Assembly: GCF_002224125.1 (NCBI RefSeq)
Contig: NZ_NCSM01000059.1
Span: 1-64,000 of the forward strand
Reading direction: 5' to 3'
Source of the DNA: Streptomyces sp. NBS 14/10
Lineage (GTDB): Bacteria > Actinomycetota > Actinomycetes > Streptomycetales > Streptomycetaceae
DNA length: 64,000 bases
Below the pieces are notes generated by a model. That model was not told the DNA's origin. It saw only the letters and a program-made list of their open reading frames with translations, and did not search any database. Of this stretch, positions 35,363-53,295 are shown one piece after another. Position 1 is the stretch's first letter. Each line of letters begins with the position of its first letter. The position numbers and the translations under genes were made by a program.

Positions 35363-35400
35363 CGGGCCGCAGCCCAGAGGCCAGCAAGGAGGTCGTGCCA

Positions 35401-37670: not shown

Positions 37671-37840
37671 ACGACGGCCTCCCGGAAAGCCACCCACGCG
37701 GCGGGCGCCACGCGCAGTATCGGGCCCTCGGGTCGCTTGGAGTCGCGTATCGCGACCGTGTCGGGGTGGTTGGTGGCCACCTCGACGCACTCTTCTGTTC
37801 CGTTGCTGTAGCTCGACTTGCGGAACTCAGGCGCGGCCAT
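37640..37840 (-). CDS. DUF397 protein, C-terminus altered at a junction
   Basis: A 66-residue DUF397 protein (FRKSSYSNGTEECVEVATN, IRDSK, LRVAPAAWVAFREAVV). It is nearly identical to the next gene over codons 5-55, but where that copy ends in KALPEEV this one reads QTSSRISRR because its frame enters the 3' end of the permease gene on the other strand. The native last residues and stop codon are missing. DUF397 proteins partner with XRE-DUF5753 regulators. Whether this version is functional is unclear. Gap to the second copy is three bases. Confidence 0.8.
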   Translation of the reverse strand: MAAPEFRKSSYSNGTEECVEVATNHPDTVAIRDSKRPEGPILRVAPAAWVAFREAVVQTSSRISRR

Positions 37841-37843
37841 CCG

Positions 37844-38038
37844 TCACACCTCTTCGGGGAGTGCTTTCACGACGGCCTCCTGGAAGGCCACCCACGCGGC
37901 CGGCGCCACGTGGAGTATCGGGCCCTCAGGGTGCTTGGAGTCGCGTATCGCGACCGTGTCAGGGTGGTTGGTGGCCACCTCAACGCATTCGCGGTCACCG
38001 TTGCTGCGACTCGACTTCCGGAACTCAAAGGCGGTCAT
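37844..38038 (-). CDS. DUF397 protein
   Basis: A 64-residue protein with the full DUF397 pattern: FEFRKSSRSNGDRECVEVAT, IRDSKHPEGPILHVAPAAW and FQEAVVKALPEEV. It lies three bases downstream of the XRE gene on the same strand and immediately upstream of an almost identical copy, a recent tandem duplication. In Streptomyces such small acidic proteins are the third element of whiJ-like loci, believed to modulate the XRE regulator. Confidence 0.92.
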   Translation of the reverse strand: MTAFEFRKSSRSNGDRECVEVATNHPDTVAIRDSKHPEGPILHVAPAAWVAFQEAVVKALPEEV

Positions 38039-38041
38039 CTC

Positions 38042-38923
38042 TCACATCTCTTCACGGAGGACTTCGATAAATGCCTTGCTCTCCGGCTCAGTGAGGGCGC
38101 TTCGGGAGATCTCCTCGAAGAGATCCTGGTGCTGGGCGGCTTCGCCCCCTCCCTCAACCCACAACCGGCCGAAGGCGGTTTCTGTATACACCACGTCCAT
38201 GGCGCCGGGCTCGGTGAACGAAATGATGTTGAAGGCACCGTTCATGCCCAAGTGCGCTCCGGCCGCGAACGGCAGCACCTGAACCGTGATGTGGGACTGA
38301 TCCGCGACGTGGCAGAGATGCGCCAACTGCGAGCGCATCACCTCCGGCCCGCCGACTTGGTGCCGGAGCGCACTTTCGTGGATCAGTGCCCATAGTGCCA
38401 GCACGGGTTCTTCGGTGAGCCGCCGCTGACGCGCCACTCTGGTGGCAACGAACTGTTCGCCGTCGTCCGGGTGACCACGCGTCGAGTTACCGATGGCCAA
38501 CGCGCGGGCGTAATCAGGGGTCTGCAGCAAGCCGGGCACGAGGCAGAGCTGCCACGTCCTGATGGCCGTCGCCACGCTCTCCAGAGCGACGTATTCCTGC
38601 ATGTCCCCGAGGTCGGGGAAATCGCTCCACCACCCCTTGGCCCTGCGGCGCTCGCGGTCGACCCGAGCCAGTTCCAGCAGCCCGCCCACTATTGCAGGAT
38701 CGCTCACGCCGTAGAGCTCGCACAAGGCCCGGATGTCCGGGTCGCGCATGGGGACCCAGCCGCGCTCCATCTTGGCCACCTTGGTGGTGGACGCCGTCAG
38801 AGCCTTGGCGGCATGCCCCTGCGTAAGCCCCGCCTCGGTGCGGAGCTTGATGAGCTCACCGCCGAGTCTGCGCCCCAGAACGGTCGAGGTGCTGTTTCCC
38901 TGCATCAGCTGACTCGTAGTCAC
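38042..38923 (-). CDS. XRE-DUF5753 regulator (WhiJ-like)
   Basis: A 293-residue regulator. Residues 15-75 form a Cro/C1 helix-turn-helix (LGGELIKLRTEAGLTQGHAA, TKVAKMERGWVPMRDPDIRA); residues 100-285 are the DUF5753 domain (WQLCLVPGLLQTPDYARAL, IHESALRHQVGG, ITVQVLPFAAGAHLGMNGAF, VVYTET). Start is GTG 38923; ATG 38905 is an alternative. With the two DUF397 genes and the divergent HATPase gene it forms a whiJ/abaA-type locus; such clusters occur in many copies in Streptomyces and influence sporulation and antibiotic production. Confidence 0.93.
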   Translation of the reverse strand: MTTSQLMQGNSTSTVLGRRLGGELIKLRTEAGLTQGHAAKALTASTTKVAKMERGWVPMRDPDIRALCELYGVSDPAIVGGLLELARVDRERRRAKGWWSDFPDLGDMQEYVALESVATAIRTWQLCLVPGLLQTPDYARALAIGNSTRGHPDDGEQFVATRVARQRRLTEEPVLALWALIHESALRHQVGGPEVMRSQLAHLCHVADQSHITVQVLPFAAGAHLGMNGAFNIISFTEPGAMDVVYTETAFGRLWVEGGGEAAQHQDLFEEISRSALTEPESKAFIEVLREEM

Positions 38924-39118
38924 GCGCCCAGTCTGTCGTCAGCAGACACGCCCCCGCAAACCGATTGGAGGAATTCCTCCAAGAGGAACTTGTGTTGATC
39001 TCGCAGGCGGCGCTACGGTCCGTGATGAACCGCTCGCGCAGCGAGGCGAGTCGGCGGACCACACTCCGCCACGCCCTCGCGCGCTCAGGCCCAAACTCGC
39101 CTGCTGGAGGTGCGTGGA

Positions 39119-39571
39119 ATGACATTCGCGCCGCAAGACCCACGGAGCCCCGACCCCAACGACCCGGTCGTCCATCACGACCGGGTCGACTACTCCCCGT
39201 TCCCCAAAAGCGTGACGTTCGCCCGCCGCTACACCGCCAGGATGGTCGCCCACTGGGGCCACCCCGCCCTCGCGGACGACGCCGCGCTCATCGTCTCCGA
39301 GCTGGCGTCCAACGCCGTGCTGCACGGCGGCGTCCCCGGGCGACACTTCCGCGTTCAGCTCACCCTCACCAAAACACTCCTGCGCATCGCCGTCTCCGAT
39401 GCCAAGGGCGAACGCCTCCCCCAGCCGCGCCGCCCCACCCCCGACGACAAGTTCGGGCGCGGGCTGCTCATCGTGCGCGCGCTGGCGACCCGCTGGGGCG
39501 TACGGGAGCGAACCGTGGGCAAGGAAGTCTGGGTCGAACTCGACCTGGCGACATCGCCGGTCGAACTCTGA
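39119..39571 (+). CDS. HATPase-domain protein (AbaA-like / anti-sigma kinase-like)
   Basis: A 150-residue protein consisting of a single GHKL ATPase domain: N-box DDAALIVSELASNAVLHGG and G-box GRGLLIVRALATRWGV, preceded by FPKSVTFARRYTARMVAHWG as in RsbW/SpoIIAB-like Streptomyces proteins. GGAGG (39106-39110) is eight bases before ATG 39119. There is no membrane or sensor part. It is divergent from the XRE gene, the arrangement of whiJ/abaA loci, and may act as a serine kinase or binding partner of the XRE/DUF397 proteins. The HIT gene starts 28 bases downstream. Confidence 0.9.
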   Translation: MTFAPQDPRSPDPNDPVVHHDRVDYSPFPKSVTFARRYTARMVAHWGHPALADDAALIVSELASNAVLHGGVPGRHFRVQLTLTKTLLRIAVSDAKGERLPQPRRPTPDDKFGRGLLIVRALATRWGVRERTVGKEVWVELDLATSPVEL

Positions 39572-39599
39572 CCGGACCACGGAAGAAAGGGGCCAGGCC

Positions 39600-40124
39600 A
39601 TGCCGCCGGAACGGCAGCCGATGGACCTGGAGGCATACACGGCCAGAGCGCAACGCGGGCCGTGCTTCGTATGCGCCTTCGTATCGGGACGCCCCGACTT
39701 CGCACATCACACCGTCTACGAGGACGACGACCACGTCGCCTTCCTCGACCGATGGCCCACCCTCCCCGGCAAGGTGCTGGTCGCCCCTAAGCGACACATC
39801 GAGCACGTCGTCCGTGATCTCGACCCGGAGTCCTACACACGGCTCATGCTGGTGGTGCGGGAGGTCGCCCTCGCGGTGGAGGACTGCGTGGGCGCCGAGC
39901 GGACGTACCTCTACTCCCTGGGCAGCCAGCAAGGGAACGCACATCTGCACTGGCACATCGCCGGGTTGCCGCCGGACACCCCCTACGAACAACAGCAGTT
40001 CGCGTCGCTGATGACCGAGAACGGCGTGCTGGCCATGGAGCCCGAAGAAACCTCCGCCATGGCCGCGCGCATCCGTAACCGCATCGCGGCCCGGGGCAGG
40101 CTCAACGCACCAGGTAGGGGCTGA
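39600..40124 (+). CDS. HIT-family nucleotide hydrolase/transferase
   Basis: A 174-residue histidine-triad protein. The active-site motif is NAHLHWHIAGLP (His-x-His-x-His); a Cys pair at the start (CFVCAF) and H..VYEDDDHVAFLD, LVAPKRHIEHV are typical of the Ap4A/HINT-like branch. GAAAGGGG precedes ATG 39600. It acts on nucleoside phosphates or phosphoramidates; the natural substrate cannot be told. It runs in the same direction as the HATPase gene and converges with the P-loop kinase gene, overlapping its 3' end by 23 bases. Confidence 0.92.
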   Translation: MPPERQPMDLEAYTARAQRGPCFVCAFVSGRPDFAHHTVYEDDDHVAFLDRWPTLPGKVLVAPKRHIEHVVRDLDPESYTRLMLVVREVALAVEDCVGAERTYLYSLGSQQGNAHLHWHIAGLPPDTPYEQQQFASLMTENGVLAMEPEETSAMAARIRNRIAARGRLNAPGRG

Positions 40125-40782
40125 AGTGGTCTGCGACGTCATCGGCGATGGCCATGGCGTCGCGGGAACCGTCGACTTCGAGCACGCGGATACCCAGCCC
40201 ACGGGCGGTACGAACAGCCTCCTCGGCGATGAGACAGTCACGGGCCAGGCGGTTGGCCTGCGCTCTGGCCGGGTCGCTGACGGGGTGACCGAGCGCGGCG
40301 GCCCGGGGCAGTACACGAACTTGATGTTGGCGGAACTCGGGTGTGGGCACCATGACGATCATCCGACGCGGTGAGTCGATGATGGGGGCTACGAGCTCGG
40401 GGCGGAGCCCCCAGCCCTCGGCGATGATCGGCCTCCCGGAGACCAGCGCGCGCAGGTCGTCAAGCGTCCATTCGAAGCGGACCGGGAAATCGGCCAGGGT
40501 CTGGGCGGCCATCGCTTCGGGGGTGGTGTTGACCCACACCTCGTCCAGGTCAGGATCGGCGACGGGCTCACCAAGGCTGATGCGACGTGCGATGCGGCGA
40601 TCGTTGTGAGCGCGGGCGTCGTGGTAGTCGTAGTGATAGACGGTGACGCCATACCGTGCTGCCAGGATTCTGGCTACGGTCGATTTTCCGGCCCACTGGC
40701 CCCCGCAGATCCATAACGCCTGACGCAAGGTGCCCAAGGGGTCCCAGACTTCGTTTTCAGTGTCGAGGTCGCGGCTGGTCAT
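40102..40782 (-). CDS. P-loop kinase-like protein
   Basis: A 226-residue cytosolic ATPase/kinase. Walker A is ICGGQWAGKSTVARILAARYG near residues 24-44, followed by YHYDYHDARAHNDRR and, later, an arginine-rich lid-like region (ARAQANRLARDCLIAEEAVR), the pattern of small-molecule or nucleoside kinases. ATG 40782 has AAGGG six bases upstream; an ATG nine codons earlier is an alternative. Codon 23 is TTA (40714-40716), so expression could depend on bldA. Substrate unknown. It converges on the HIT gene with a 23-base overlap. Confidence 0.75.
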   Translation of the reverse strand: MTSRDLDTENEVWDPLGTLRQALWICGGQWAGKSTVARILAARYGVTVYHYDYHDARAHNDRRIARRISLGEPVADPDLDEVWVNTTPEAMAAQTLADFPVRFEWTLDDLRALVSGRPIIAEGWGLRPELVAPIIDSPRRMIVMVPTPEFRQHQVRVLPRAAALGHPVSDPARAQANRLARDCLIAEEAVRTARGLGIRVLEVDGSRDAMAIADDVADHFSPYLVR

Positions 40783-40893
40783 GCGATGCCCTTCTGTGGC
40801 TGTCGTCATCTGCTGTCGCTGGACGATGGTTCCAGCAGTTCCCCCGGGAAGGGCAGGAAGCCAACGCGCGGGCGGCTGGATAGTCTCTCGGCC

Positions 40894-41463
40894 ATGAATA
40901 CGGCCATGACCAGCGGCGGGGCCGCTGACCCGGTCATCCTGAGCGCGATGGAGCTGATGTCCGATCCGGACCTGGCAGCCCGCTTCGCGGAGTCGGCCCA
41001 CCGGATCCTGGCGGACCTGGTCCGCGAAGGTGCCGCACTCGGCTGGGTCGAACCGCCCTCACGCCCAGAGGTGGCGGAACTCCTCGGCCAGGTCGTCGCC
41101 GCGGTGCGGGCCGGGGATGGGGCCCTGCGCGCCGCATATCTCGACCGTCGGCTGGTCGGGCTTGGGTACTGGCTGCGCTACGCCCGGCCGACCCACCGGC
41201 CGCACGCCGACCTGGAGAAGATCGCGGTGGCTGGAGCCGCCCATGGGCGTGGCATCGGCCGGGCGCTGACCGCCGCCTTGATCGCCGACGCCCGCCAGGC
41301 CGGTATCGAGGTCCTCACCCTGGACGCCCGTGGCGACAACGCCAAGGCCCTGGACCTCTACCGGTCGCTGGGCTTCACCGAATACGGCCGGCTGCCCGAC
41401 TTCGTCGCCGTCGGCGAACGCCGCTACGACAAGGTGTTCTACATGGTGGACCTCCGAGCGTGA
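40894..41463 (+). CDS. GNAT-family N-acetyltransferase
   Basis: A 189-residue acetyltransferase. The acetyl-CoA binding motif is in LEKIAVAGAAHGRGIGRALT (Q/R-x-x-G-x-G/A), and the C-terminal DNAKALDLYRSLGFTEYGRL is typical of motif B. The N-terminal 60 residues are helical. ATG 40894 is chosen by family length; ATG 40906 is possible. A -10-like TAGTCT lies only about ten bases upstream and there is no ribosome binding site, so the transcript may be leaderless. Substrate (amine, amino acid or antibiotic) unknown. Confidence 0.88.
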   Translation: MNTAMTSGGAADPVILSAMELMSDPDLAARFAESAHRILADLVREGAALGWVEPPSRPEVAELLGQVVAAVRAGDGALRAAYLDRRLVGLGYWLRYARPTHRPHADLEKIAVAGAAHGRGIGRALTAALIADARQAGIEVLTLDARGDNAKALDLYRSLGFTEYGRLPDFVAVGERRYDKVFYMVDLRA

Positions 41464-41507
41464 GCGGTCGCGGCCGGCGTGGCTGGTGGAAGCCCGCGGT
41501 TGTGACT

Positions 41508-42473
41508 TCAGTCGTAGAGCACCGCCATGGCTCGTGTCGATGCCGCGATGCGCTCCCGAAGCTCGGTCGGCGCGAGCACCTCCACCTCCGGGCCCAGCCG
41601 CAACAGCTCCGACTCCGCGTGTTCGAGGCTCTCGACGGGGATGACGCTTCGGCGCCAGCCGTCGGCCTCCGGCTCTCCTCGGTTCGCACCGTCGATCACC
41701 GCCTGCGCCGCGAAGTCCTGTAGCCGGGCGATGCCGACCGGTGAGATGCGTATCTCCGCTTCGCCCTGCCACAGCCGCTCCTGCAGCGCCGCCGAATGGG
41801 CCTGCCAGTGACGAGCCAGGTCGAAACCGGCCGGCGGATCGAACACCTCGTCCAGTTGCTCCAGGGCGAGGATCTGCCCGATCCGGTAGGTACGCAGTTC
41901 GTCATCGGCACGAGCGACGGTGTACCAGCGTCCGGCCTTGAGCACGATTCCGCACGGCTCCAGCCGCCGCTCCACCACCTGCGGGGCATACCACCGGCGA
42001 TAGCGCACCCAGATGGCACGGCGCTGCCACACCGCGGCCGCCACCGCCGGCAGATGCGGCACCTCGTCCGCCTCCCGGTACCAGCCCGGGGCGTCGAGGT
42101 GGAAGCACTCACGGATCCGCCGGCCCTGATCCCGCAACGGGGCCGGCAGGGCCGCCTCCAACTTCAGCTCGGCGGCCGCCAGCACCGAGCCCAGCCCCAG
42201 CTCGGCCGCCGGCCCCGGGAGACCAGCCAGGAACAGCGTCTGTGCCTCGTCTGCCGTCAGCCCGGTCAACCGCGTGCGGTAGCCATCCATCAGGGCATAG
42301 CCGCCCTCGTGGCCCGCCTCGCCGTAGAGCGGCACGCCCGCCGCAATCAGCGCCTGCACATCCCGGTAGACCGTGCGCACGGACACCTCGAGCTCCGCCG
42401 CCAGCTCGACAGCGGTCATCCGGCCACGGTTTTGCAGCAGGAGCAGAAGCGAGAGGAGTCGGCTGGCGCGCAT
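41508..42473 (-). CDS. HTH-WYL transcriptional regulator (YafY type)
   Basis: A 321-residue DeoR/WYL-type regulator. The helix-turn-helix (RASRLLSLLLLLQNRGRMTA, VSVRTVYRDVQAL) is followed by a WYL domain (about 130-215) in which the motif is IWVRYRRWY ... GRWYTVARADDELRTYRIG, and a WCX region. Start at ATG 42473 places the HTH at residue 2, as usual; ATG 42503 is an alternative, but it falls inside the operator. A perfect 12-base-arm inverted repeat separates it from the divergent gene, and typical YafY-type repressors recognise TGACA-N-TGTCA sites like this one. It probably represses the divergent gene and itself. Confidence 0.92.
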   Translation of the reverse strand: MRASRLLSLLLLLQNRGRMTAVELAAELEVSVRTVYRDVQALIAAGVPLYGEAGHEGGYALMDGYRTRLTGLTADEAQTLFLAGLPGPAAELGLGSVLAAAELKLEAALPAPLRDQGRRIRECFHLDAPGWYREADEVPHLPAVAAAVWQRRAIWVRYRRWYAPQVVERRLEPCGIVLKAGRWYTVARADDELRTYRIGQILALEQLDEVFDPPAGFDLARHWQAHSAALQERLWQGEAEIRISPVGIARLQDFAAQAVIDGANRGEPEADGWRRSVIPVESLEHAESELLRLGPEVEVLAPTELRERIAASTRAMAVLYD

Positions 42474-42490
42474 GGCCGTAAACCTACGCC

Positions 42491-42519
42491 GGTCCCCTGA
42501 CAAAGGATGTCAGGGGACC
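42491..42519. promoter_or_regulatory. Operator of the WYL regulator
   Basis: Perfect inverted repeat GGTCCCCTGACA (42491-42502) and TGTCAGGGGACC (42508-42519) with a 5-base centre. It contains TGACA-N5-TGTCA, the core typical of YafY/WYL-type sites. It lies between divergent genes: TAGCGT (42525-42530) serves as -10 for the right-hand gene, eight bases before its ATG, and a TAGGTT-type -10 is on the opposite strand before the regulator. Confidence 0.8.
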
Positions 42520-42537
42520 GGTCTTAGCGTCTGCGGC

Positions 42538-43020
42538 ATGACGAACAACGACTTCGCGTTCTTCACCGGCACCTACGACGTCGCCAACCGCTGGCGCAAG
42601 GACTTCCTGGACCCCACCGAGGGCGACGACCGCTGGGAGGAGTTCCCCGGCACCACCCGCGCCTCCGCCCATTTCGACGGCGCCGCCAGCTTCGACGAGA
42701 TCGAGTTCCCGACGAAGGGCTTCTCCGGGCTGACGCTGCGGCTGTTCAACCCGGCGACCGCACAGTGGTCGCTGTACTGGGCCAGCAAGCGCACCGGCAC
42801 CCTCTTCCCACCCGTCACCGGCAGCTTCGGCGCGGACGGCACCGGCGTCTTCCACGGCGACGACGAGCACGACGGCCGCAGGGTCCGGGCACGCTTCATC
42901 TGGTCCGGCATCACCGCCGACCGCGCCCACTGGGAGCAGGCGTTTTCCCTCGACGACGGGCAGACCTGGATCACCAACTGGCACATGGACTTCACCCGGC
43001 GCGTGGCCCGGTTGCCGTGA
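42538..43020 (+). CDS. DUF1579-like beta-barrel protein
   Basis: A 160-residue soluble protein rich in Trp, Phe and Asp, patterned as a lipocalin-like barrel (FFTGTYDVANRWRKDFLD, FRLFNPATAQWSLYWASK-like strand, GVFHGDDEHDGRRVRARF, WEQAFSLDDGQTWITNWHMD). It resembles DUF1579 proteins, of unknown function, which often lie beside WYL or AraC regulators. ATG 42538 follows a -10-like TAGCGT by eight bases, so the mRNA is probably leaderless. The perfect WYL operator directly upstream indicates tight control by the divergent regulator. Confidence 0.75.
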   Translation: MTNNDFAFFTGTYDVANRWRKDFLDPTEGDDRWEEFPGTTRASAHFDGAASFDEIEFPTKGFSGLTLRLFNPATAQWSLYWASKRTGTLFPPVTGSFGADGTGVFHGDDEHDGRRVRARFIWSGITADRAHWEQAFSLDDGQTWITNWHMDFTRRVARLP

Positions 43021-43219
43021 GCAGGTATCGTCTCGCGCCTTCGGCGCAAAGCGGCCGACGGGCGGCAGAACGGCGGGCGGTCGTCCGGAGCGGTGGACGC
43101 CGCTCCGGTTGGGCTCTCCCCCCACCTGCTCCTAAAAAAGTGCTTGCTCTACATCAAGTACCGCATCAAGCGATTATTTAAGAGGGGGTGGGTGGAGAGC
43201 CGACTGACCGGCTTGGGTG

Positions 43220-44290
43220 TTACCCGGCTCGTCGGGCGCGCTTGCAGGCCAGGCCGGCAAGGGTCTCCCAGATCAGCCGATGGGCGTTGTTGACCGTCAG
43301 GTCGGCGTGGTCGTACGGAGGGCAGACCTCCGTGACGTCGAGCGCGACCACGTTGGTCTCCAGAGCGATCCGGCGAACGGCTCTGAGCAGGTCGATCGGT
43401 GCGAAACCGCCAGGCTCGGGTGTTCCCGTCCCCGGGGCGAACCCCGGGTCCAGCACGTCGATGTCGATCGAGATGTAGACACCGTCCGTGCCGTCCATCG
43501 CTTCGGCGATGACATCGTCCATCACATCCTTGATGCCGCGCTCCCAGATCTCCTGCATCGTGTGATGGCGCATTCCCTGCTCGCGCATCCACTCCTGTAC
43601 GTCGGCCGGTGGCCAGTAACCCCGAAGCCCGACCTGGATGAAGTCTCGTCCGGCAATCGCTCCCGACTCGATCAGTCGCCTCATCGGTGTTCCGTGACTG
43701 GCGAGGTTGCCGCGCAGAATGTCAGCCGTGTCGGCGTGGGCGTCAAAATGGATCATCCCGATCCGACCGTGGCCGTAATGCGCGCCGACCGCCATCCCGC
43801 TCGGCCACGTCACCGAGTGGTCACCCCCGATCACCACGGGGATGATGCCGCGGCTCACCACATCGGAGACCCGACGGTAGATGGCATCACGCGACAGATC
43901 CCACATACCGGGTGAGACGATCGCGTCACCGTAGTCGACGACCGCGAGGTGGTCGAAGATCTCGATCTGAAGGTCGAGGTGGTAAGTGCCCCCGTCGTAG
44001 GCGTTGGCGCGCAGCGCGCGGGGCCCGAAACGGGCGCCAGGCCGGTTGGTCGTGTTGTCGTCCCATGGCGCGCCGATCACGGCGACGTCGGGTTTCCACT
44101 CGTCGAGTTGTTCCGGTTCGGTCAGGTGGGGCCGCAGGCCGAAGGTCGGCACGCCCATGTACGAGGACGAATCGAGTTGGGCCCGCATGCCGGGCGGAAG
44201 GACCGGTCGATCATCCGTCGTCACGGCATCGATGCCGCGTGCCGCGCCCGTGACGGTCGCCGTGTGCTGCCCCTGGGCTTCGTGTGTCAT
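43220..44290 (-). CDS. Agmatinase/ureohydrolase-family enzyme
   Basis: A 356-residue ureohydrolase with the binuclear manganese site intact: GGDHSVTWPSG, HFDAHADTADI and SIDIDVLDPGFAPGTGTPEPG. The length and the GAPWDDNTTNRPGARFGPRA region put it with agmatinase, guanidinobutyrase and guanidinopropionase rather than arginase; the exact guanidino substrate cannot be decided by eye. It releases urea from a guanidino compound. It is divergent from an ArsR-like regulator with a 57-bp gap. Downstream of its stop an AT-rich patch (about 43133-43185) stands out from the GC-rich surroundings. Confidence 0.92.
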   Translation of the reverse strand: MTHEAQGQHTATVTGAARGIDAVTTDDRPVLPPGMRAQLDSSSYMGVPTFGLRPHLTEPEQLDEWKPDVAVIGAPWDDNTTNRPGARFGPRALRANAYDGGTYHLDLQIEIFDHLAVVDYGDAIVSPGMWDLSRDAIYRRVSDVVSRGIIPVVIGGDHSVTWPSGMAVGAHYGHGRIGMIHFDAHADTADILRGNLASHGTPMRRLIESGAIAGRDFIQVGLRGYWPPADVQEWMREQGMRHHTMQEIWERGIKDVMDDVIAEAMDGTDGVYISIDIDVLDPGFAPGTGTPEPGGFAPIDLLRAVRRIALETNVVALDVTEVCPPYDHADLTVNNAHRLIWETLAGLACKRARRAG

Positions 44291-44347
44291 GCGGTGAAGT
44301 CCACGGCAGCGCTGTGGACTCGAGCAAAGGATGTAGCGTAAAGCTTA

Positions 44348-45334
44348 ATGATCAGCTTCGTGCTCGGTGTCGAGGACCTTGCCGACACCCGGTTTGCCGT
44401 CTCGCCCTTGCAGGAGACCGTGCTCAGCCTGCGGGTGCTACGTGATCCGGGGCAGTCCGCCCTGCATCTGCCATGGCGCAGGTCCGTACTCCCCAGGCTC
44501 GGCACGCTCGACACCGAACTGCTGATGTCCCTGATCGGAAAGCGCCACATCCTTCCCGATTTCCTGACCCCGCGCCCCACACGCTTCGCCCCATCCTTCG
44601 AAGACGAACTGGCCATTGCCCGCCAGTCCTCCTCCGATCTGATCCGCCGCGACCTGCTGGCCACACACGCGCCGGGCCCGCTCCCCGAAGCTCTGCACGA
44701 CGCCACCGCCACGGCCACGAGGGTCGTCGGTCTCTGCGACACCATCTGCGAACTCTTGGGTCAGTACTGGGAACTCGCCATCAAACCGATGTGGCCGCAG
44801 ATACGACTCACACTGGAAGCCGACATGACCTACCGCGCGCGGCAACTGGCCAAAGGAGGCGCACGCCTGCTCTTCACCGACATGCACCCGAACCTGCGAT
44901 GGCAGGACGGAGTGCTGCACATCGACAAGGTGGTCGGCGAGCACCGCACCGCGGCCTCCGGCCGAGGGCTGCTGCTGATACCGTCCGTGTTCGCGCAGAA
45001 ACCGGCACCCCCCATCAACCCGGACGATCCACCGGTGCTGGCGTACCCCAGCCGTGCGGTGGCGACGCTCTGGGCCCCGCCATCGACCCCTGACGCGACG
45101 GCTCTCGCCTCTCTGCTCGGCGCGCCCAGAGCCACCCTGCTTCGCATCCTCGAAGAGCCGCTGGCAACGACGGAGGTCGCTCGCCGCCTCGGCGTCACCC
45201 CCAGCGCCGTGTCCCAGCACCTTCGTGTGCTGTACGCGACGGGCCTGGTCACCCGGGCGCGCCACGGACGGCAGGTGCTGTACCGCCGTAGCTCTCTCGG
45301 CGACCAACTGACCCACCGGATTCCGGCCGCATAA
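44348..45334 (+). CDS. ArsR-like winged-helix regulator with long N-terminal domain
   Basis: A 328-residue regulator of the DUF5937-ArsR type. The first 180 residues are a helical effector domain; the C-terminus is a winged helix (ATTEVARRLGVTPSAVSQHL, RVLYATGLVTRARHGRQVLY). TAGCGT ten bases upstream of ATG 44348 could be a -10, so the message may be leaderless. It is divergent from the ureohydrolase gene and 40 bases upstream of the thioesterase gene on the same strand; either could be its target. Confidence 0.88.
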   Translation: MISFVLGVEDLADTRFAVSPLQETVLSLRVLRDPGQSALHLPWRRSVLPRLGTLDTELLMSLIGKRHILPDFLTPRPTRFAPSFEDELAIARQSSSDLIRRDLLATHAPGPLPEALHDATATATRVVGLCDTICELLGQYWELAIKPMWPQIRLTLEADMTYRARQLAKGGARLLFTDMHPNLRWQDGVLHIDKVVGEHRTAASGRGLLLIPSVFAQKPAPPINPDDPPVLAYPSRAVATLWAPPSTPDATALASLLGAPRATLLRILEEPLATTEVARRLGVTPSAVSQHLRVLYATGLVTRARHGRQVLYRRSSLGDQLTHRIPAA

Positions 45335-45374
45335 CCCTGAGCCCTGACCCTTCGACCCCGAAAGGCAGCACGCC

Positions 45375-45836
45375 ATGCCCCCTTCCGAGACGTCCGAGAC
45401 CTCCGAGACATTCGAGACGGCAGCCCTCAGCCCCGCCATCCTCCTGGCAGCCATGCCCTTCGCGGCACAGCTGGGCATCGAACTCCACGAGGCCGCCCCC
45501 GACCGGGCCGTGGGCAGTCTGGCCTGGTCACCGGAGGTCTGTACCGCGGGTGGAGTCATACACGGCGGGGCCCTGATGGCGCTGGCCGACTCCGTCGGCG
45601 CCGTCTGCGCCTATCTCAACCTCCCGCAGGGCGCGGGGACGTCCACGGTGGAGTCCAAGACCAACTTCCTGCGGGGAGTGGCCTCCGGGCGAGTCCACGC
45701 CACGGCCCGGCCCCTGCACGTCGGCGGCACCCTCATCGTCGTACAGACCGATCTGCGGGACGACAAGGACCGGCTGGTGGGGCAGACCACCCAGACCCAG
45801 ATCGTGCTCACCGCGAAGGGCGGTGCCACAAGCTGA
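45375..45836 (+). CDS. PaaI-type hotdog-fold thioesterase
   Basis: A 153-residue acyl-CoA thioesterase. The hotdog-fold signature is VIHGGALMALADSVGAVCAY with the general-base Asp, followed by STVESKTNFLRGV and GRTLIVVQTDLRD-like strands. The N-terminus carries a short Ser-Glu-Thr repeat (SETSETSETFET) from a 9-base DNA repeat. AAAGGCAG precedes ATG 45375. It hydrolyses an aryl- or acyl-CoA; the substrate is unknown. It is probably co-transcribed with the ArsR-like gene. Confidence 0.88.
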   Translation: MPPSETSETSETFETAALSPAILLAAMPFAAQLGIELHEAAPDRAVGSLAWSPEVCTAGGVIHGGALMALADSVGAVCAYLNLPQGAGTSTVESKTNFLRGVASGRVHATARPLHVGGTLIVVQTDLRDDKDRLVGQTTQTQIVLTAKGGATS

Positions 45837-45858
45837 CCCCGGCCGCGGCCTGCACGTC

Positions 45859-45996
45859 TCACGCGCGCAGGCCGCGCAGCAGCAGCTCGCACACCTCCGC
45901 GAAGTCCGCGTCGATCTCGGGGTCCGCCCACTCCGACGCGTAAATCGGCAGGGTGGGCTGGGCCGTGTGAAGCGCCTCGTTGATGAGCAGTGCAGT
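45859..45996 (-). pseudogene. TetR regulator, C-terminal remnant next to the tnpB element
   Basis: The reverse strand keeps 45 codons of a TetR C-terminus (LLINEALHTAQPTLPIYASE, then DFAEVCELLLRGLRA and a stop). Upstream the frame meets a TAA at 46003 and then tnpB element DNA. The rest of the regulator is absent on the other side of the element, so it was deleted as well as interrupted. In TetR-thioesterase pairs the two genes are often convergent, as here. Confidence 0.55.
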
Positions 45997-46170
45997 TCGT
46001 TATGGCCCATGCCTTGAAGTGCTCTCCCGACTAAAGCCAGGAGATTCCCACCTACCTTGCGGTGGCAGGCTTGACGCCACGAGTGCGCCCGACGACTGCC
46101 CTTCCGGCAGCCGGGATGAGCGCGTGGCCCATTCGGTACAGGTGAAGGACGTTCCGCGCTGCGTTGTGGT
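45994..46170 (-). ncRNA. Predicted omega-RNA / right end of the first tnpB element
   Basis: TnpB proteins use an omega-RNA made from the 3' end of tnpB and the element's right end; the guide is the flanking DNA. On the coding strand the region after the stop contains the hairpin CCACC/GGTGG (46048-46052 with 46061-46065), the element-like GACTAAAGCC on the opposite strand, and ends in TCAA (46017-46014), a common right cleavage motif. The adjacent bases down to about 45994 would be the guide. Boundaries are estimates. Confidence 0.3.
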
Positions 46171-47373
46171 CGGCGTTGCATGACCAGCCGCAGTCCGGGT
46201 TCTTGCAGACGAACGTGGCCTGGTCCTCCCGGCTGCCCGGCGTGATGAAGCCGCATGCGGAGCAGCGCAGGGAGGTGCCGGGGGCGGGGACTTGGTGCAG
46301 GGTGCCGCCGTGGCGGGCGGTCTTGTACGTCAGCATGGTCACGGTGCGGCCCCATGCCTCTTGGCTGATGGAGCGGTTCAGGCCAGACTTCTGCGCGACG
46401 TTCTTCCCCGGGTTGTCGATGGTGCCCCTGGCGGACTTGACCATGTTCGGGATGTGCAGTTTTTCCACCACGATCACGCCGTAGGTGCGGGCGAGCCGAG
46501 TGGTGGTCTGGTGCTGCCAGTCAGTGGCGCGGCGCGTGGCTCTTGCGCGTAGCCGCTTGATCTGGTCGTAGGTGTTCTGGAGCCGGCGGGAGGTCTTCTC
46601 GCCGCGTTTGCGGAAGCTCTTGCGGTATGCGGCGCGCCGCTCCAGGCGGAGCAGTTTGGCCTTCTCGTCGCGGTTCAGCCACTTGTCCCGGTCGGCTGTG
46701 CCGTCCGGGAGCCGGGGCGGGCGGCCGTGGTCGTGGTGGTTGCCGTCGGACAGGGCGAGCGGGACATTGACTCCGGCGTCGATGCCGACCTCGGGGCCGG
46801 TGCGCGGCTCAGGTGCGGTCTCGAGGGTCTGGACGCGGAAGGCGATGTGCCAGCCGAGGGCGTCCTTGACCAGCCGAGCCCCGGTGATCCGGTTGTCCGC
46901 GCTCGCGTTCCTGCCCACGAGCAGGTCGCGGGTCCAGCGGAACCGGACCCGGCCAACCTTGGGGATGTTGACCATGCCCCAGCGGCGGTGGACCCGCTTG
47001 ATCTGAAGGTCACGCCCCTGGGGAATGTCCACCGACATCACCGTACGGAAGCGGGCTTTGAAGTTCGGCTCGTCGGCCCGGCCTTCCCAGCAGTTCTTCC
47101 ACGCCTGGAAGTAGGTCTTCAGCACCGCCTGGGCAGCCTGGGCCGGGAGGACGGCGAGCCAGTCGATCTCCTTGCGGGCCCGCCGGATCGCCTCGTCCGC
47201 AGCCTTGAGGGACCGGCGGCACCTCGGCGTCATGTCCACAAGTCGTGCAGGAGATTCCACATGGCCCGCGCCGCATGGGCCTGAGCGTCGATGAGCCGGA
47301 CCTGCACAGGGGTCAATGCCAGCCGGGCCCGATGCCCGAACTGCCACTTCTCCTGCACACGTTGCGTTGCCAT
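46052..47373 (-). pseudogene. tnpB: IS200/IS605-family tnpB, frameshifted near the N-terminus
   Basis: RNA-guided nuclease TnpB of an IS1341-type (tnpB-only) element. The true start is ATG 47373: the first 47 residues (MATQRVQEKWQFGHRARLAL ... MWNLLHDLWT) end at TGA 47232-47230, and the rest of the protein continues in another frame from an ATG overlapping that stop (ATGA at 47233-47230). The second part has RuvC Asp in GIDAGVNVPLALSDG, Glu in VIVVEKLHIPNMV, a four-Cys zinc finger (CSACGF ... CKNPDCGWSC) and the last RuvC Asp in NADHNAARN. Without a rescue frameshift or coupled initiation the enzyme lacks its N-terminal wedge strand. No tnpA is present. Confidence 0.8.
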
Positions 47374-47538
47374 GTGATTACTTTAGCGTTATGTCGCCAA
47401 GATGGAATCCAAACCCCGATGGACGCATGGTGACGGCCGCCGCCAGCGCGGGGCAACAGCGCAGATCCGCGCCGCAGTCGAGGTCATAGCCGCCTCGGGA
47501 TGCACTTCAGCTCCGCTCTGAAGGCAGAGCACTGTGCC

Positions 47539-48354
47539 TCACGGACACCGCCCGGCCAGCGCCTGCGCCGCGACGGCCAGAAAGTCCCACAGATGCTGCT
47601 GGCGGCGGTCCTCGACCACGGCGAGGCAGGTTTCATGCGACACGGCGTCGGTCACCGGCCGATGCACCAGGTCGGGCCGGGAGTAGTAGCGCGCGACACT
47701 ACGGGGCACCAGGGCGACACCGACCCCGGCCGCGACGAGCTCAAGCTTCTCTTCGATCGTCGCGACGCGCCGCCGCTCACCGTCCAGGATCTCCTCGCCG
47801 TCGAGATCGGCGCGAGTGAGCCGCCGCCGGGACGCCAGGGGGTGGGCGACGGGCAGGCAGGCGACCTGCGGCTCGCTGCCGATCGGGACGGTGTGAAGCC
47901 CGTCCGTGTCGAAGGCGTGGCGCAGATAGCCGACGTCGGCCCGGCCGTCCCGCAGCGCCTCGGCCTGCTCGTACCAGTTCAGTCGGAGCAGTTCGATCTC
48001 GACGCCGGGGTGCTCGTGGGCGAACGCGCGGACGGCGGTCGAGACGCTCAGCCCGGGCACGAAGCCGACGACCAGGCGGTGGGCGCCGCGCGCCGCGCTG
48101 TGCACGCGGCGGGTGGCGGCGCGCGCGGCGGCGAGCACGTCGAGCGCGTCCTTCTGCAACTGCTCGCCGGCCGGGGTCAGCCGTACGGAACGGGTGGTGC
48201 GCTCCAGCAGCGCGCAGCCGAGCTCCTGCTCCAGCGCCCGGATCTGCCGACTGAGGACGGGCTGCGCGATATGCAGCCGGTCGGCGGCCCGACCGAAGTG
48301 CCCGTGCTCCGCCACGGCCACGAAGTAGCGCAGCTTACGCAGATCCAGATCCAT
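47539..48354 (-). CDS. LysR-family regulator
   Basis: A 271-residue LysR regulator. The N-terminal helix-turn-helix is LRKLRYFVAVAEHGHFGRAA, LHIAQPVLSRQIRALEQELG; the effector-binding domain begins at about 90 (HRLVVGFVPGLSVS). It is about 25 residues shorter than most family members, missing part of the last helix, but no frameshift is visible. It is divergent from the NAD(P)-binding protein gene with a 120-bp gap containing TN11A-like sequence (TATCAATGCGCGCGAA region), the usual arrangement for a LysR activator and its target. Confidence 0.92.
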   Translation of the reverse strand: MDLDLRKLRYFVAVAEHGHFGRAADRLHIAQPVLSRQIRALEQELGCALLERTTRSVRLTPAGEQLQKDALDVLAAARAATRRVHSAARGAHRLVVGFVPGLSVSTAVRAFAHEHPGVEIELLRLNWYEQAEALRDGRADVGYLRHAFDTDGLHTVPIGSEPQVACLPVAHPLASRRRLTRADLDGEEILDGERRRVATIEEKLELVAAGVGVALVPRSVARYYSRPDLVHRPVTDAVSHETCLAVVEDRRQQHLWDFLAVAAQALAGRCP

Positions 48355-48474
48355 ACCCGGAGGGTATCAATGCGCGCGAAGAGGTATTGGACGAACACCC
48401 CCTTATCGGCGGAGAGTTACCTCCGCACGGCGCCCGGGAAGCCGGTTCGCCACTCATCAGGAGGCCCCTTTCCC

Positions 48475-49356
48475 ATGATCGTCATCACCACTCCCACCGG
48501 CCAGATCGGGAGCCAGGTCCTTGAGAACCTGTTCGACAGCGGCGAGCCCATCCGGGTGATCGCACGCGATCCCTCCCGGCTCTCCCCGCGGATACAGGAG
48601 CGCGTCGAGGTCATAGCCGGGTCGCACGGCGACTCCGACGTCATCGACAAGGCATGCGCGGGCGCGGACGCCGTCTTCTGGCTGGCGCCGCCGAATCCCC
48701 GCGCCGAGAGCCTCGAGGCGGCGTATCTGGACTTCACCCGGCCCGCGTGTGCCGCGTTCAAGGCCCAGGGGGTCAAGCGGGTGGTCGGCGTCTCGGCCCT
48801 GGGCCGCGGGGTGATCGTGAACGCCGGGCTGGTGTCGGGCTCGCTGGCCATGGACGACCTGATCGCGGCCACGGGCGTCAACTACCGGGCGCTGACGGCA
48901 GCCTCGTTCATGGACAACATGCTCCGCGAAGTTGACTCGATCAAGAACCAGGGCGTGTTCTTCTCCCCGCTCTCCGGCGACCTCAGGGCCCCCACCTGCG
49001 CCACCCGCGACATCGCGGCCGTCGCCGCCGAACTGCTGCTGGACGACTCCTGGAGCGGAGCCCATGGCGAGGTCCCGATCCTGGGGCCCGAGGACCTGTC
49101 CAACGAGGACATGGCGCGGATCATGTCCGAGGTACTGGGGAAGCCGGTGCGCTTCCAGCACGTACCCGCCGACGACTTCACGGCGGCGCTGGCCGGACAC
49201 GGGATGTCCGAGGCGATGGTGCGGGGCTTCTTCGACATGATGGTGGCCAAGAACCAGGGCCTGGACAACGCCGAACCGCGTACCCCTCGGTCCACCACCC
49301 CCACCAGCTTCCGCCAGTGGTGCGAAGAGGTCCTCAAGCCGGCCGTCCTGGCCTGA
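48475..49356 (+). CDS. NmrA-like NAD(P)-binding protein
   Basis: A 293-residue atypical SDR of the NmrA/quinone oxidoreductase 2 type. The N-terminal Rossmann motif is VITTPTGQIGSQV (G-x-x-G-x-x-x form), followed by VIARDPSRLS for the adenosine side. The catalytic Tyr of classical SDRs is absent, in keeping with a sensor or quinone reductase role. ATG 48475 follows AGGAGG by about ten bases. It probably depends on the divergent LysR gene. Function may be redox sensing or quinone reduction. Confidence 0.88.
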   Translation: MIVITTPTGQIGSQVLENLFDSGEPIRVIARDPSRLSPRIQERVEVIAGSHGDSDVIDKACAGADAVFWLAPPNPRAESLEAAYLDFTRPACAAFKAQGVKRVVGVSALGRGVIVNAGLVSGSLAMDDLIAATGVNYRALTAASFMDNMLREVDSIKNQGVFFSPLSGDLRAPTCATRDIAAVAAELLLDDSWSGAHGEVPILGPEDLSNEDMARIMSEVLGKPVRFQHVPADDFTAALAGHGMSEAMVRGFFDMMVAKNQGLDNAEPRTPRSTTPTSFRQWCEEVLKPAVLA

Positions 49357-49504
49357 ACCCACCGCACATGCTCGGTCTTTTGACCGAGCCGATGGGCCGC
49401 CCGCCCTGGTTCCCGGCGCCCTGGCCCTCCCGTTCATCCGGCCGATGACCACCGGCTCCGTCCGTGTCCACAATGCGGGGACGGATGAGACAAAGGAGCC
49501 GATC

Positions 49505-49987
49505 ATGTCGTACCCCGAGCCCCGCTATCTCGGCGAGAACGGCGAGGTCAACGCGGTCTACAGGCCGGTTGACAGCACGCCCGAGCTGGACTCCCCCACG
49601 GGCAACCGGACCCACTATCTGGCCACTCACGCCACCACCGGGGGTGAATTCGGGCTCTACCGGGTTGACATGGGACCCAGGTCGCCGGGGCCCAGTACCC
49701 ACTTCCACCGCTCGATCTCGGAGTCCTTCTTCATCCTGTCGGGGGCCGTGCGGCTCTACGACGGAGATCGCTGGATCACGGCGCGGCCGGGTGACTTCCT
49801 GTACGTACCGGTGGGCGGGTTGCACGCGTTCAAGAACGACTCCGACGACCCGGCGTCCCTGCTGCTGCTCTTCGCCCCGGGCGCACCGCGCGAGGAGTAC
49901 TTCGAGCAGGTCGCGGAGATGACCCGGCGTGGCGGCAAGGAGCTCGAGGAGTTCCGTATCCGCCACGACAGCTTCTTCGTGGAGTGA
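49505..49987 (+). CDS. Cupin-domain protein
   Basis: A 160-residue single-domain cupin. The metal-binding motif 1 is STHFHRSISESFFILSGAVR (His-x-His ... Glu), and motif 2 is GDFLYVPVGGLHAFKND with His. AAAGGAG stands six bases before ATG 49505. Related proteins include quercetin dioxygenase-like enzymes and sugar-binding cupins; the substrate is not predictable. The gene is followed, two bases after its stop, by the convergent MarR gene end. Confidence 0.9.
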   Translation: MSYPEPRYLGENGEVNAVYRPVDSTPELDSPTGNRTHYLATHATTGGEFGLYRVDMGPRSPGPSTHFHRSISESFFILSGAVRLYDGDRWITARPGDFLYVPVGGLHAFKNDSDDPASLLLLFAPGAPREEYFEQVAEMTRRGGKELEEFRIRHDSFFVE

Positions 49988-49989
49988 CA

Positions 49990-50496
49990 TCAATCGACAG
50001 GGTGGCCGTCCCCGGCGTCCCCGGCGCCCCCGGTGACCGTCTCCAGATGGGCCGACAGGTCGTCGACCATGCGGCCGAGGAGAAGGACGAGGTGCCGCCG
50101 ATCCGCGTCGGACCATCCGGACAGCGCATCGGCGAACCAGCCGTTGATGACCCGCAGATAACGGCCGGCGAGCTTTCCGCCGGCCGCGGTGAGGGTGATC
50201 AGACGGGCCCGCTGGTCGTCGGGGTCGGCCACCCGTTCCACCAGGCCGCGCTGTTCAAGACCGTGGATCTGGCGGGTGGCGTGCGGGCCGGCGACCTGCA
50301 TGCGCTGGGCGATCTCCCCGACCCGCAGGGGCCGGTCCGCCGCGTCGAGGATGACCAGGATCGTCACGGCGGGCCGTTCCAGGGTCACCCCGGCGGCCGC
50401 GGTGGCCCGTTCGAAGAGCTGCCCGCGGCTCAGCGTGCCGCTGAGCCGGTTCATGGCGGGCAGCAGTCCCCTCAGCCCCTCGTCGTCGTGCGGCAC
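49990..50496 (-). CDS. MarR-family regulator
   Basis: A 168-residue MarR repressor with the winged helix in VGEIAQRMQVAGPHATRQIH, GLEQRGLVERVADPDDQRAR (wing with the conserved D-x-R). It is divergent from the FAD monooxygenase gene; the 115-bp gap contains two almost identical 15-bp palindromes, one at each promoter, strongly suggesting that this protein represses both. Its ligand is probably the monooxygenase substrate or product, likely aromatic. Confidence 0.93.
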   Translation of the reverse strand: MPHDDEGLRGLLPAMNRLSGTLSRGQLFERATAAAGVTLERPAVTILVILDAADRPLRVGEIAQRMQVAGPHATRQIHGLEQRGLVERVADPDDQRARLITLTAAGGKLAGRYLRVINGWFADALSGWSDADRRHLVLLLGRMVDDLSAHLETVTGGAGDAGDGHPVD

Positions 50497-50517
50497 GCGG
50501 ACACTCCCTTTAATAGT

Positions 50518-50532
50518 TACCTACGTTAGGTA
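50518..50532. promoter_or_regulatory. MarR operator 1 (regulator side)
   Basis: TACCTACGTTAGGTA, a 15-bp palindrome with one mismatch, 22 bases upstream of the marR start. It differs by a single base from operator 2 located 70 bases away. Confidence 0.8.
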
Positions 50533-50587
50533 TATATTCATGCCAGGCAGGCGGCATCCCCTGGGGGACGTTCGCCTTCAATAAAGA

Positions 50588-50602
50588 TACCTAAGTTAGG
50601 TA
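50588..50602. promoter_or_regulatory. MarR operator 2 (monooxygenase side)
   Basis: TACCTAAGTTAGGTA, a perfect 15-bp palindrome ending nine bases before the monooxygenase ATG, where a bound repressor would block initiation of transcription or translation. Confidence 0.85.
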
Positions 50603-50611
50603 AGGGACCTC

Positions 50612-52153
50612 ATGACCATGAGCGACGTACTGATCGTCGGTGCCGGACCCACCGGGCTGACCCTGGCCTGCGATCTCGCCCGGCGCGGTGTCAACTGCCG
50701 CATCGTCGAGGCCGCCGAGCGGCCCAGCACCGCCTCCCGCGCCAAGACCATCCAGCCGCGCGCACTGGAGATCGCCGACGACCTCGGCGTCATCGACCGC
50801 GTCCTCGAGCTTGGGGCCATCAACGTCCCGACCCGGCGCTACGACCGCGAGCGCGTGGTCTCCGAAGCCGTGGAAGTGGCCGTGGGCACGGCGGCCCCCG
50901 GCGCTCCGTACCCGCCGGTCTGGCTGTCACAGCCCCAGCTGGAGTCCGTCCTGCGCGACCGGCTGGCGGAACTCGGCGGCCAGGTGGAATGGGGCTCGGC
51001 CGTGAGCGACCTCAGCCAGGACGCCGACTCCGTCACCGCGACCGTACGGACGGCGGCCGGGCAGCGCGAGATTCGGGCGCGCTATGTCGTCGGCTGCGAC
51101 GGGGGCCGCAGCATCGTCCGGCAGCGGATGGGGGCCGTCCTGCGGGGCACCTCCTACGGGGACCACCGCTGGTACCTCGGCGACGTACGCATCAAGGGCC
51201 TCGACCGGCACTGCCAGCACCTCTGGGCCGGCCCCGAGCACGGGATCCTGTCCCTGTTCCCGCTGCCCAGCACCGACATCTGGCAGTTCCAGGCGTCCGT
51301 CCCCGCCGATGAGCGGGAGCCCGGCACGCCCACGCTGGAGCTGTTCCGCCGCATCTTCGCCGAACGCGCGGGCCTGCCGGGCGTGGACCTCCAGGACGCG
51401 GGCTGGCGTTCGCTGTACCAGGTCAACGTATGCCTGGTCGACCGGTATCGCGTCGGCCGGGCCTTCGTCGCCGGGGACGCGGCGCATATCCACTCGCCCG
51501 CCGGCGGGCAGGGCATGAACACCGGTATCCAGGACGCGTACAACCTGGGCTGGAAACTCGCCGCCGTCCTCGGCGGCGCCGACGCCGCCCTGCTCGACAC
51601 CTATGAACGAGAGCGCCACCCCGTCGCCCAGGCCGTCCTCGACGACAGCACCTCCCGGATGCACGCGATGATGCGCGCCTTCGGCGACAGCGACGCGGCG
51701 ACCGCGCTGCGCGGTCTCACCGACGACTTCACCACCGGGCTCACCATCGCCTACCCCACCAGCCCACTGACGACCCGACCGAGCGGCCCCCAGGCCGGCG
51801 ACCGGGCACCCGACGCGCCCTGCCGCGACGCCGCGACCGGCCGCGAGCACCGCCTCTTCGACCTGCTGCGCGGCCCGCACTGGACGCTGCTGTCCTTCGG
51901 CCGCGGCCACGGCACGGCCACCGGGTGGGACGCGCCCGTCCCGCTGCGCGCCTATCGGGTGACCGACGACCCGACGGCGACCGGTCCCGACACGGTCATC
52001 GACACCGACGGCCAGGCCCATCGCGGCTACGACATGCGCGAAGACGGGCTCGTCCTCATCCGCCCGGACGGCTATATCGCCATGCGCACCGCCGCCCACC
52101 AGGGCGACGCGGCCCTACGCCGCGCCACCGCGCTCGCGGCCCGCCCCAACTGA
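50612..52153 (+). CDS. FAD-dependent aromatic monooxygenase (PheA/TetX/RdmE type)
   Basis: A 513-residue class A flavoprotein monooxygenase. The FAD Rossmann motif VGAGPTGLTLACDLARRG is at residue 8; the dual FAD/NADPH motif is VVGCDGGRSIVRQ; the second FAD motif is GRAFVAGDAAHIHSPAGGQG. The C-terminal 110 residues are the thioredoxin-like domain of phenol hydroxylase-like and polyketide-tailoring members. It hydroxylates an aromatic substrate with NADPH and O2; it could serve catabolism, antibiotic inactivation or polyketide tailoring. It is controlled by the divergent MarR gene. ATG 50618 is an alternative start. Confidence 0.93.
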   Translation: MTMSDVLIVGAGPTGLTLACDLARRGVNCRIVEAAERPSTASRAKTIQPRALEIADDLGVIDRVLELGAINVPTRRYDRERVVSEAVEVAVGTAAPGAPYPPVWLSQPQLESVLRDRLAELGGQVEWGSAVSDLSQDADSVTATVRTAAGQREIRARYVVGCDGGRSIVRQRMGAVLRGTSYGDHRWYLGDVRIKGLDRHCQHLWAGPEHGILSLFPLPSTDIWQFQASVPADEREPGTPTLELFRRIFAERAGLPGVDLQDAGWRSLYQVNVCLVDRYRVGRAFVAGDAAHIHSPAGGQGMNTGIQDAYNLGWKLAAVLGGADAALLDTYERERHPVAQAVLDDSTSRMHAMMRAFGDSDAATALRGLTDDFTTGLTIAYPTSPLTTRPSGPQAGDRAPDAPCRDAATGREHRLFDLLRGPHWTLLSFGRGHGTATGWDAPVPLRAYRVTDDPTATGPDTVIDTDGQAHRGYDMREDGLVLIRPDGYIAMRTAAHQGDAALRRATALAARPN

Positions 52154-52249
52154 AGCCGCTGACCGCAGTCTTCCCCTCCCGGCCGGACGGGCGGTTTCAT
52201 GTACGGAACGCTGATCGACTGCGCTCAGCAGGCGCGAGGAGGTCCGAGG

Positions 52250-53188: not shown

Positions 53189-53193
53189 CGAGG

Positions 53194-53252
53194 TTGACAC
53201 TGATCATCCACGGGAATAGCTTTGCATTCAAAGATGCTTTGCTTCCAAAGCA
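53194..53252 (+). promoter_or_regulatory. Promoter and tandem operator of the tautomerase gene
   Basis: TTGACA (53194-53199) and TAGCTT (53217-53222) are separated by exactly 17 bases, a near-consensus vegetative promoter. Two palindromes follow: CTTTG-CATT-CAAAG (53220-53233) and CTTTG-CTTC-CAAAG (53237-53250), 17 bases apart, overlapping the -10 and the expected start. They look like a double repressor site of MarR or HxlR type. Confidence 0.75.
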
Positions 53253-53295
53253 AACACGTCCGCGTGCAAGCTACCCGACCGAACGGAGATTCGTC

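Follow-up and report, generated by a model that had tools for sequence, protein, structure and literature searches.

A probable gene-acquisition hotspot at the permease junction of a sugar ABC transporter operon in Streptomyces

Can an importer persist when the genes of its two permeases, co-assembling subunits that would be expected to share one transcript, have been pulled apart? The question is raised by a stretch of 64,000 nucleotides of Streptomyces sp. NBS 14/10 (positions 1 to 64,000 of contig NZ_NCSM01000059.1), referred to here as the window. It carries an ABC transporter operon of the CUT1 class with genes for a sugar-binding lipoprotein (hereafter SBP), a MalF-type permease (permease 1) and a MalG-type permease (permease 2). 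A preliminary description had noted that 14.6 kb of accessory DNA lie between the permeases and had offered two outcomes, a transporter that still works and one that the strain has lost. In the current analysis the locus has been compared with its counterparts in other Streptomyces. We propose, with a probability of about 0.77, that the permease junction is a gene-acquisition hotspot inside an operon, the halves of which survive as two units with the transporter under selection.

The SBP_bac_1 domain and two BPD_transp_1 permeases with EAA motif are the constituents of a CUT1 importer. The stop codon of the SBP gene and the ATG of permease 1 overlap as TGATG (TGA at 36760-36762), the interval between the permeases measures 14,579 bp, and AGGAGG precedes the TTG with which permease 2 starts; the overlap, the distance and the separate ribosome binding site had all been described correctly. 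The open reading frame (ORF) of permease 2 opens at 52199, and its conserved start is the TTG seven bases past the AGGAGG; S. himastatinicus has a GTG at this position. The SBP probably starts with the GTG at 35401, for which 35395 is an in-frame alternative. No ATPase gene is found in the operon, which is normal since the genome has two OB_MalK-type matches elsewhere, as against 55 paired permease matches. CUT1 (MalFG-type) importers share an ATPase of the MsiK type, and one genomic MalK-type ATPase presumably serves this importer. The S. coelicolor counterparts are probably SCO5428-5430; a literature search on these names found no paper.

Contiguity of the permease genes is usual in CUT1 operons, if not strictly required, and among the 55 paired matches of this genome it is broken at this locus alone. 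As a control within the genome, the best 55 of 77 matches to permease 1 and 60 of 65 matches to permease 2 were taken; the 22 permease-1 matches set aside are weaker, and many are fragments or cross-matches of the MalG type. For 54 of the 55 MalF-type matches a MalG-type match follows on the same strand within 345 bp, the exception being the locus under study. Across the genus, orthologues of permease 1 and permease 2 (E <= 1e-60) co-occur in the identical 47 of 101 genomes. One of these, G073, has its permeases on two contigs and was counted as unresolved; among the other 46 the permeases are adjacent in 36 (largest gap 100 bp) and split at the same junction in 10. The comparison with relatives supports the earlier suggestion of an insertion between once-adjacent permeases. 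A second CUT1 operon, which served as control and occurs in 40 of 61 genomes of the genus, is adjacent in all its 41 copies, with a largest gap of 179 bp. The difference between 10/46 and 0/41 corresponds to a Fisher p of 0.0013, which is a guide only because species are not independent. Fifteen of the 36 adjacent genus genomes were fetched for further analysis.

In a set of 102 non-redundant genomes the gaps are bimodal. The permeases are adjacent in 67, of which 66 have a gap of <=155 bp and one a gap of 368 bp, and split in 35, a split being a gap of >=939 bp or an inversion, and no gap falls between 368 and 939 bp. Close relatives are over-represented here, and 35/102 is therefore no rate for the genus, to which 10/46 is nearer. 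Left out of it were the duplicates L093, L095 and L145, and L082, L089 and L092, which have no permease 1 in the fetched DNA; L072 is absent from the three-gene tree. Genomes G165, G384 and G360 were chosen from a survey of 392 genomes, at least 184 of which have permease 1 among the matches listed.

The window genome belongs to a supported group of 19 members that includes S. milbemycinicus, S. himastatinicus and S. hygroscopicus. The operon is split in all 19, with gaps of 2.2 to 29.8 kb; these genomes were picked for holding the permeases, a pair whose genus-wide frequency is the 47 of 101 given above. Splits are found elsewhere in a group comprising S. netropsis, S. cinnamoneus and S. hiroshimensis, in another that includes S. 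albus and S. iconiensis (gap of about 1 kb), in G058 with SAJ15, in G008, which has the same permeases as S. pathocidini, and in AJS327. The permease (two-gene) tree requires 6 changes of state and the three-gene tree 5, and the well-supported branches alone force at least 4. The picture of a single insertion in one strain, as first drawn, had to be given up: the split is common to a supported group, other groups are split separately, and the inserted content keeps being replaced. The halves are oppositely oriented in three genomes. At L084:7441-10828 and L137:2433-10813 a gene of the SBP family and permease 1 lie on the strand opposite to permease 2, the split operon being inverted too, and in G060 the permeases are likewise in opposite orientation. 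In S. philanthi bv. triangulum (L124:9064-9884) permease 1 matches as two pieces in different frames, apparently broken or misread, and the permeases are still close.

The replacement of the cargo is extensive. The 341 cargo ORFs called by a GC-frame heuristic in the 35 split genomes form 191 families, and 135 of these occur in a single genome only. Within the 19-member group the mean Jaccard similarity of cargo is 0.44 for pairs whose permeases differ by <3% (9 pairs), 0.24 at 3-6% (40), 0.06 at 6-10% (45), 0.04 at 10-13% (75) and 0.02 beyond (2). The most constant family, an XRE-DUF5753 regulator, is present in 15 of the 19 blocks. S. milbemycinicus has permeases 97-98% identical to those of the window, and flanks 93-95% identical; it is 93% identical to 47534-53682, with the NmrA-like, cupin, MarR and FAD monooxygenase cargo in common, and has other pieces of the block, but gives no match to 41456-45353 or to the TnpB segment 46020-47534. 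Constant flanks enclosing many accessory genes that differ from genome to genome are the characteristics of a hotspot. The last called cargo ORF is co-directional with permease 2 in 17 of the 19 members, so that read-through may add to the expression of permease 2. As side observations, the DUF397, XRE-DUF5753 and divergent HATPase_c_2 genes (37640-39571) recur in most related blocks at varying offsets with 67-91% DNA identity, and the blocks of S. iranensis (L163:9629-11778) and S. samsunensis (L164:3866-4954) encode MvdD-type pre-ATP-grasp proteins, to which S. iranensis adds a PCMT methyltransferase; these look like parts of a peptide-modifying cluster.

The junction itself indicates how both permeases could remain usable. 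In many adjacent genomes (22 of 67 displayed) the Shine-Dalgarno sequence of permease 2 lies within or next to the terminal codons of permease 1, as in the junction GCGAGGAGGTCTGAGCATGTCC of S. oceani (L144, pattern search). In the split group permease 1 keeps such end codons and GCGAGGAGGTCCGAGG with a start codon precedes permease 2, so that the junction is doubled. When a profile of the 19 permease-2 leaders was compared with the fetched regions, 17 of the 28 matches other than the leaders themselves fell on permease-1 tails, and with the last 31 nt of the profile this was 28 of 34, matches in the dropped loci being excluded from these counts. Control profiles of the SBP leader (18 genomes), AGGAGG included, placed 0 of 51 and 0 of 46 matches there. 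It is this contrast that counts for the interpretation of the leader end as a tail copy, and probably only the last 18-31 nt of the leader are kept as a copy of permease 1. To the eye the leader looks like a decayed 3' end of permease 1, but a duplication extending further into that gene was rejected: the permease-1 tail profile failed to find the leader, and shuffle tests without the Shine-Dalgarno block gave p values from 0.005 (window genome) to 0.84, mostly >0.05.

Ahead of permease 2 the element GTCTTCC-N17-CGGTTTCATG is conserved and the sequence further upstream is not. The fitted pattern has 18 matches in 4.14 Mb, every one of them before permease 2 of a split genome; its carriers are 15 of the 19 group members and G058, SAJ15 and G008. 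Its position and conservation suggest a promoter. The SBP gene is preceded by a TTGACC...TTACGGTC-like sequence conserved within the clade. Co-regulation through the SBP promoter was considered and discarded, as the SBP pattern gave 17 matches, none near permease 2. By eye, 52202-52240 contains a short inverted repeat, GCGC...GCGC, whose loop varies and which lies right before the Shine-Dalgarno sequence.

The following course of events is proposed. Where the operon is unsplit, permease 2 can have its ribosome-binding site within the end codons of permease 1. Additional DNA would have come in at this 3' end in the ancestor of the S. violaceusniger-type group, leaving a copy of these codons on each side, one of which would end permease 1 and the other start permease 2. 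Permease 2 would have gained a leader with the promoter-like element, and the halves would thereby have become separate transcription units. The block may then have become a site of gene swapping, most likely as DNA from relatives recombined with the permease genes on either side. On this account Streptomyces would repeatedly have acquired genes at the junction of the two permease genes of a CUT1 transporter. A possible intermediate of DNA entry is found in G096, where a complete permease 1 is followed by about 4.1 kb, a second copy of the last 309 nt of permease 1 (302 identical) and then cargo shared with G055; the latter has a trace of 37 nt at the place matching the tail copy (E 0.11). One-sided homologous exchange in permease 1 would yield the arrangement of G096, as would a single crossover with a circle bearing a permease-1 fragment; G096 gives the one hint of homologous recombination in the flanks.

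If the separation had disrupted coupled translation, as it should, the transporter of the split strains might be dead or dying and the permeases relics, which we consider quite unlikely. The median dN/dS in the split group is 0.274 for the SBP, 0.153 for permease 1 and 0.108 for permease 2, compared with 0.474, 0.259 and 0.288 in the adjacent genomes (pairs limited to dS 0.1-1.0, which leaves 161, 161 and 163 of 171 clade pairs); the lower values are read as no sign of relaxation and not as stronger selection. The matched permease regions of the 35 split genomes contain no stop codons, the first 40 residues of permease 2 being excluded, and the EAA pattern, characteristic of the permease loop that contacts the ATPase, is present in 35 of 35 for permease 1 and 34 of 35 for permease 2. 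The conservation of the permease-2 leader, which does not extend to the sequence further upstream, and the presence of both permeases in the same 47 genomes also argue against relics. The operon is split without evident loss of the transporter because both permeases are intact and under selection. Of the two outcomes first offered, selection together with the lack of stops in the matched regions fits a transporter that still works better than one that the strain has lost; we infer that it is made and working, and its substrate is likewise inferred. The same co-occurrence speaks against permease 2 having been freed to pair with some other MalF-type partner or to serve as a shared subunit, a reading to which the leader of its own and the opposite orientation of the halves in three genomes would lend themselves. 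The closest other matches in the genome, within the best-match sets, are 36% (MalF-like) and 34-35% (MalG-like) identical, and each of the 54 other MalF-type matches examined has its own adjacent MalG-type gene. As no other match exceeds 36% identity, a better partner, which the preliminary description had named as evidence against its reading, is not seen in this genome, and such an exchange of partners is very improbable. That the window genome is a draft of 127 contigs might suggest an artefact of assembly; S. milbemycinicus shares the split with flanks of high identity and the complete chromosome S465 (CP114036.1) is also split, which makes an artefact practically negligible.

Slightly more room, though still an unlikely alternative, is left for a site-specific mobile element of an unrecognised kind that enters the 3' end of permease 1, rebuilds the gene and leaves the old tail as an att-like repeat. 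The imperfect 16-nt direct repeat at the block edges (13/16 identical), the recurrent use of the junction and the 309-nt tail copy of G096 are compatible with it; the repeat is explained equally well by a retained ribosome-binding site. Integrase or resolvase families are absent from the 72 cargo ORFs, out of about 341, that were scanned in the window (16) and in its relatives (56), and no family is common to all 19 blocks, the best reaching the 15 mentioned above. The TnpB elements were rejected as the cause of the split, since S. milbemycinicus, itself split, has no match to either of the two TnpB segments of the window. A known plasmid as the source of the block was also rejected: no PLSDB record covers 80% of either block half, partial matches being found in 51 and 549 records.

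Several points weigh against the proposed hotspot. As G058, SAJ15 and G008 carry the promoter pattern, their splits may have a common origin with that of the clade, and the pattern was fitted to the sequences in which it was counted, its strict form being missed by 4 of the 19 members. Taken singly, the leader-profile matches to permease-1 tails are weak, with E values from 0.46 upwards, and these tails are interrelated; the leader minus its last 18 nt placed 0 of 13 matches on such tails, leaving a longer duplication unsupported. The two permease-1 tails of G096 differ little in their affinities. With 72 of about 341 cargo ORFs scanned, mobility genes may be missed. The dN/dS values are simple NG86 estimates made without correction for codon bias, and one of the 35 split genomes is without the EAA pattern in permease 2.

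The features of the window are collected in Table 1. The block is made up of regulators and small enzyme genes, and a HIT family protein is also found among them by family search. A phosphofructokinase gene is identified 3' of permease 2 in the same way, and pta-, ackA- and pyk-like genes are recognised downstream by eye. A second TnpB-family element lies right after permease 2 (53683-55156, TnpB at 53755-54972 on the minus strand); this stretch of 1.47 kb is unmatched in S. milbemycinicus, where the flanking matches overlap by 7 bp. Upstream of the operon there is a DctA-like gene with a score under the curated cut-off, and a GH18-like gene (34245-35270) immediately precedes the SBP. Among the 25 loci compared the GH18-like family is found in G000, G055 and G096, with similar sequence 5' of the SBP in further group members. 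No RNA family reached its gathering score within 37000-56000.

Table 1. Features of the transporter locus and of the block between its permease genes (window coordinates)
Feature	Position	Strand	Evidence or remark
SBP_bac_1 sugar-binding lipoprotein, first operon gene	35401..36762	+	PF01547 4.1e-34 on ORF 35071-36762
Permease 1, MalF-type	36762..37670	+	PF00528 6.9e-17; EAA loop EAAEVDGASGPRRFWHITLP
Permease-1 tail: imperfect repeat bracketing the block, left copy, GCGCGACGAGGTTTGA	37655..37670	+	13/16 identical to 52232-52247
Variable accessory block between permeases, 14,579 bp	37671..52249	.	adjacency in most relatives; contents vary
Two small ORFs of the same family	37640-37840 and 37844-38038	-	second is DUF397, PF04149 6.5e-19
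XRE-type regulator, HTH_31 and DUF5753	38042..38923	-	PF19054 3.4e-55, PF13560 7.3e-12
HATPase_c_2 protein, divergent from XRE regulator	39110..39571	+	PF13581 1.3e-11
GNAT	40786-41463	+	Pfam/NCBIfam
WYL/WCX regulator	41508-42503	-	Pfam/NCBIfam
Agmatinase-like	43220-44290	-	Pfam/NCBIfam
ArsR-type HTH protein	44348-45334	+	Pfam/NCBIfam
4HBT thioesterase	45375-45836	+	Pfam/NCBIfam
TnpB-family RNA-guided endonuclease	46052..47347	-	NF040570 3.2e-55
NmrA-like, domain in C-terminal half	ORF 47500-49356		Pfam
Cupin	49445-49987	+	Pfam
MarR	49990-50496	-	Pfam
FAD monooxygenase	50612-52153	+	Pfam
Promoter-like element of permease-2 leader, GTCTTCC (52168-52174) ... CGGTTTCATG (52192-52201)	52168..52201	+	conserved in 19-genome clade
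Right copy of junction repeat, GCGCGAGGAGGTCCGAGG, permease-2 Shine-Dalgarno	52232..52249	+	copy of last codons of permease 1
Permease 2, MalG-type, TTG start	52250..53188	+	PF00528 5.4e-12; EAA loop EAAWTDGASWLQSLVRVILP

The locus resembles other CUT1 importers in its SBP, its two PF00528 permeases with EAA loops and an ATPase gene outside the operon, and differs from them in its non-contiguous permease genes. Operons are reportedly changed by insertion or by 'death' ('The life-cycle of operons', Price et al. 2006). Gene-acquisition hotspots are known in kind; of interest here are the position inside a transporter operon, its repeated use, and the way in which the junction brings along a ribosome-binding site of its own. 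Among operon-like structures of haloarchaea, insertion is a rare class with 86 of 946 events (PMC7760734). The present case is like the operon change described in that paper, in that genes once together are parted by inserted DNA and may gain promoters of their own; it is unlike it in the kilobases of exchanged cargo, the several lineages, the two-permease transporter and the selection kept on both genes. Hotspots without mobile elements that recombine at flanking core genes have been described in PMC5635113. The likeness lies in one locus used in many genomes, fast gene turnover and conserved flanking genes, and our proposal also resembles those hotspots in the frequent lack of a recognisable mobile element and the recombination suggested for the flanks. 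The differences are that here the flanking genes encode subunits of one transporter within one operon, and that the boundary falls within codons carrying the ribosome-binding site of the next gene.

The duplicated tail would keep permease 1 whole and permease 2 translatable, and the junction might in this way tolerate and accumulate foreign genes within the operon. That DNA repeatedly enters at this 3' end for that reason, and that junctions at which the tail of one gene serves as ribosome-binding site of the next could be a general class of self-preserving landing sites, perhaps used by an integrase-free element, is a tentative and rather doubtful extension. The locus provides a natural series of one operon in the unsplit, short split, long split and inverted states, with selection measured on both halves, and so allows a direct test of how much operon contiguity matters for a two-subunit transporter. 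A concrete route is suggested, too, by which an operon may take up genes while its downstream gene escapes silencing.

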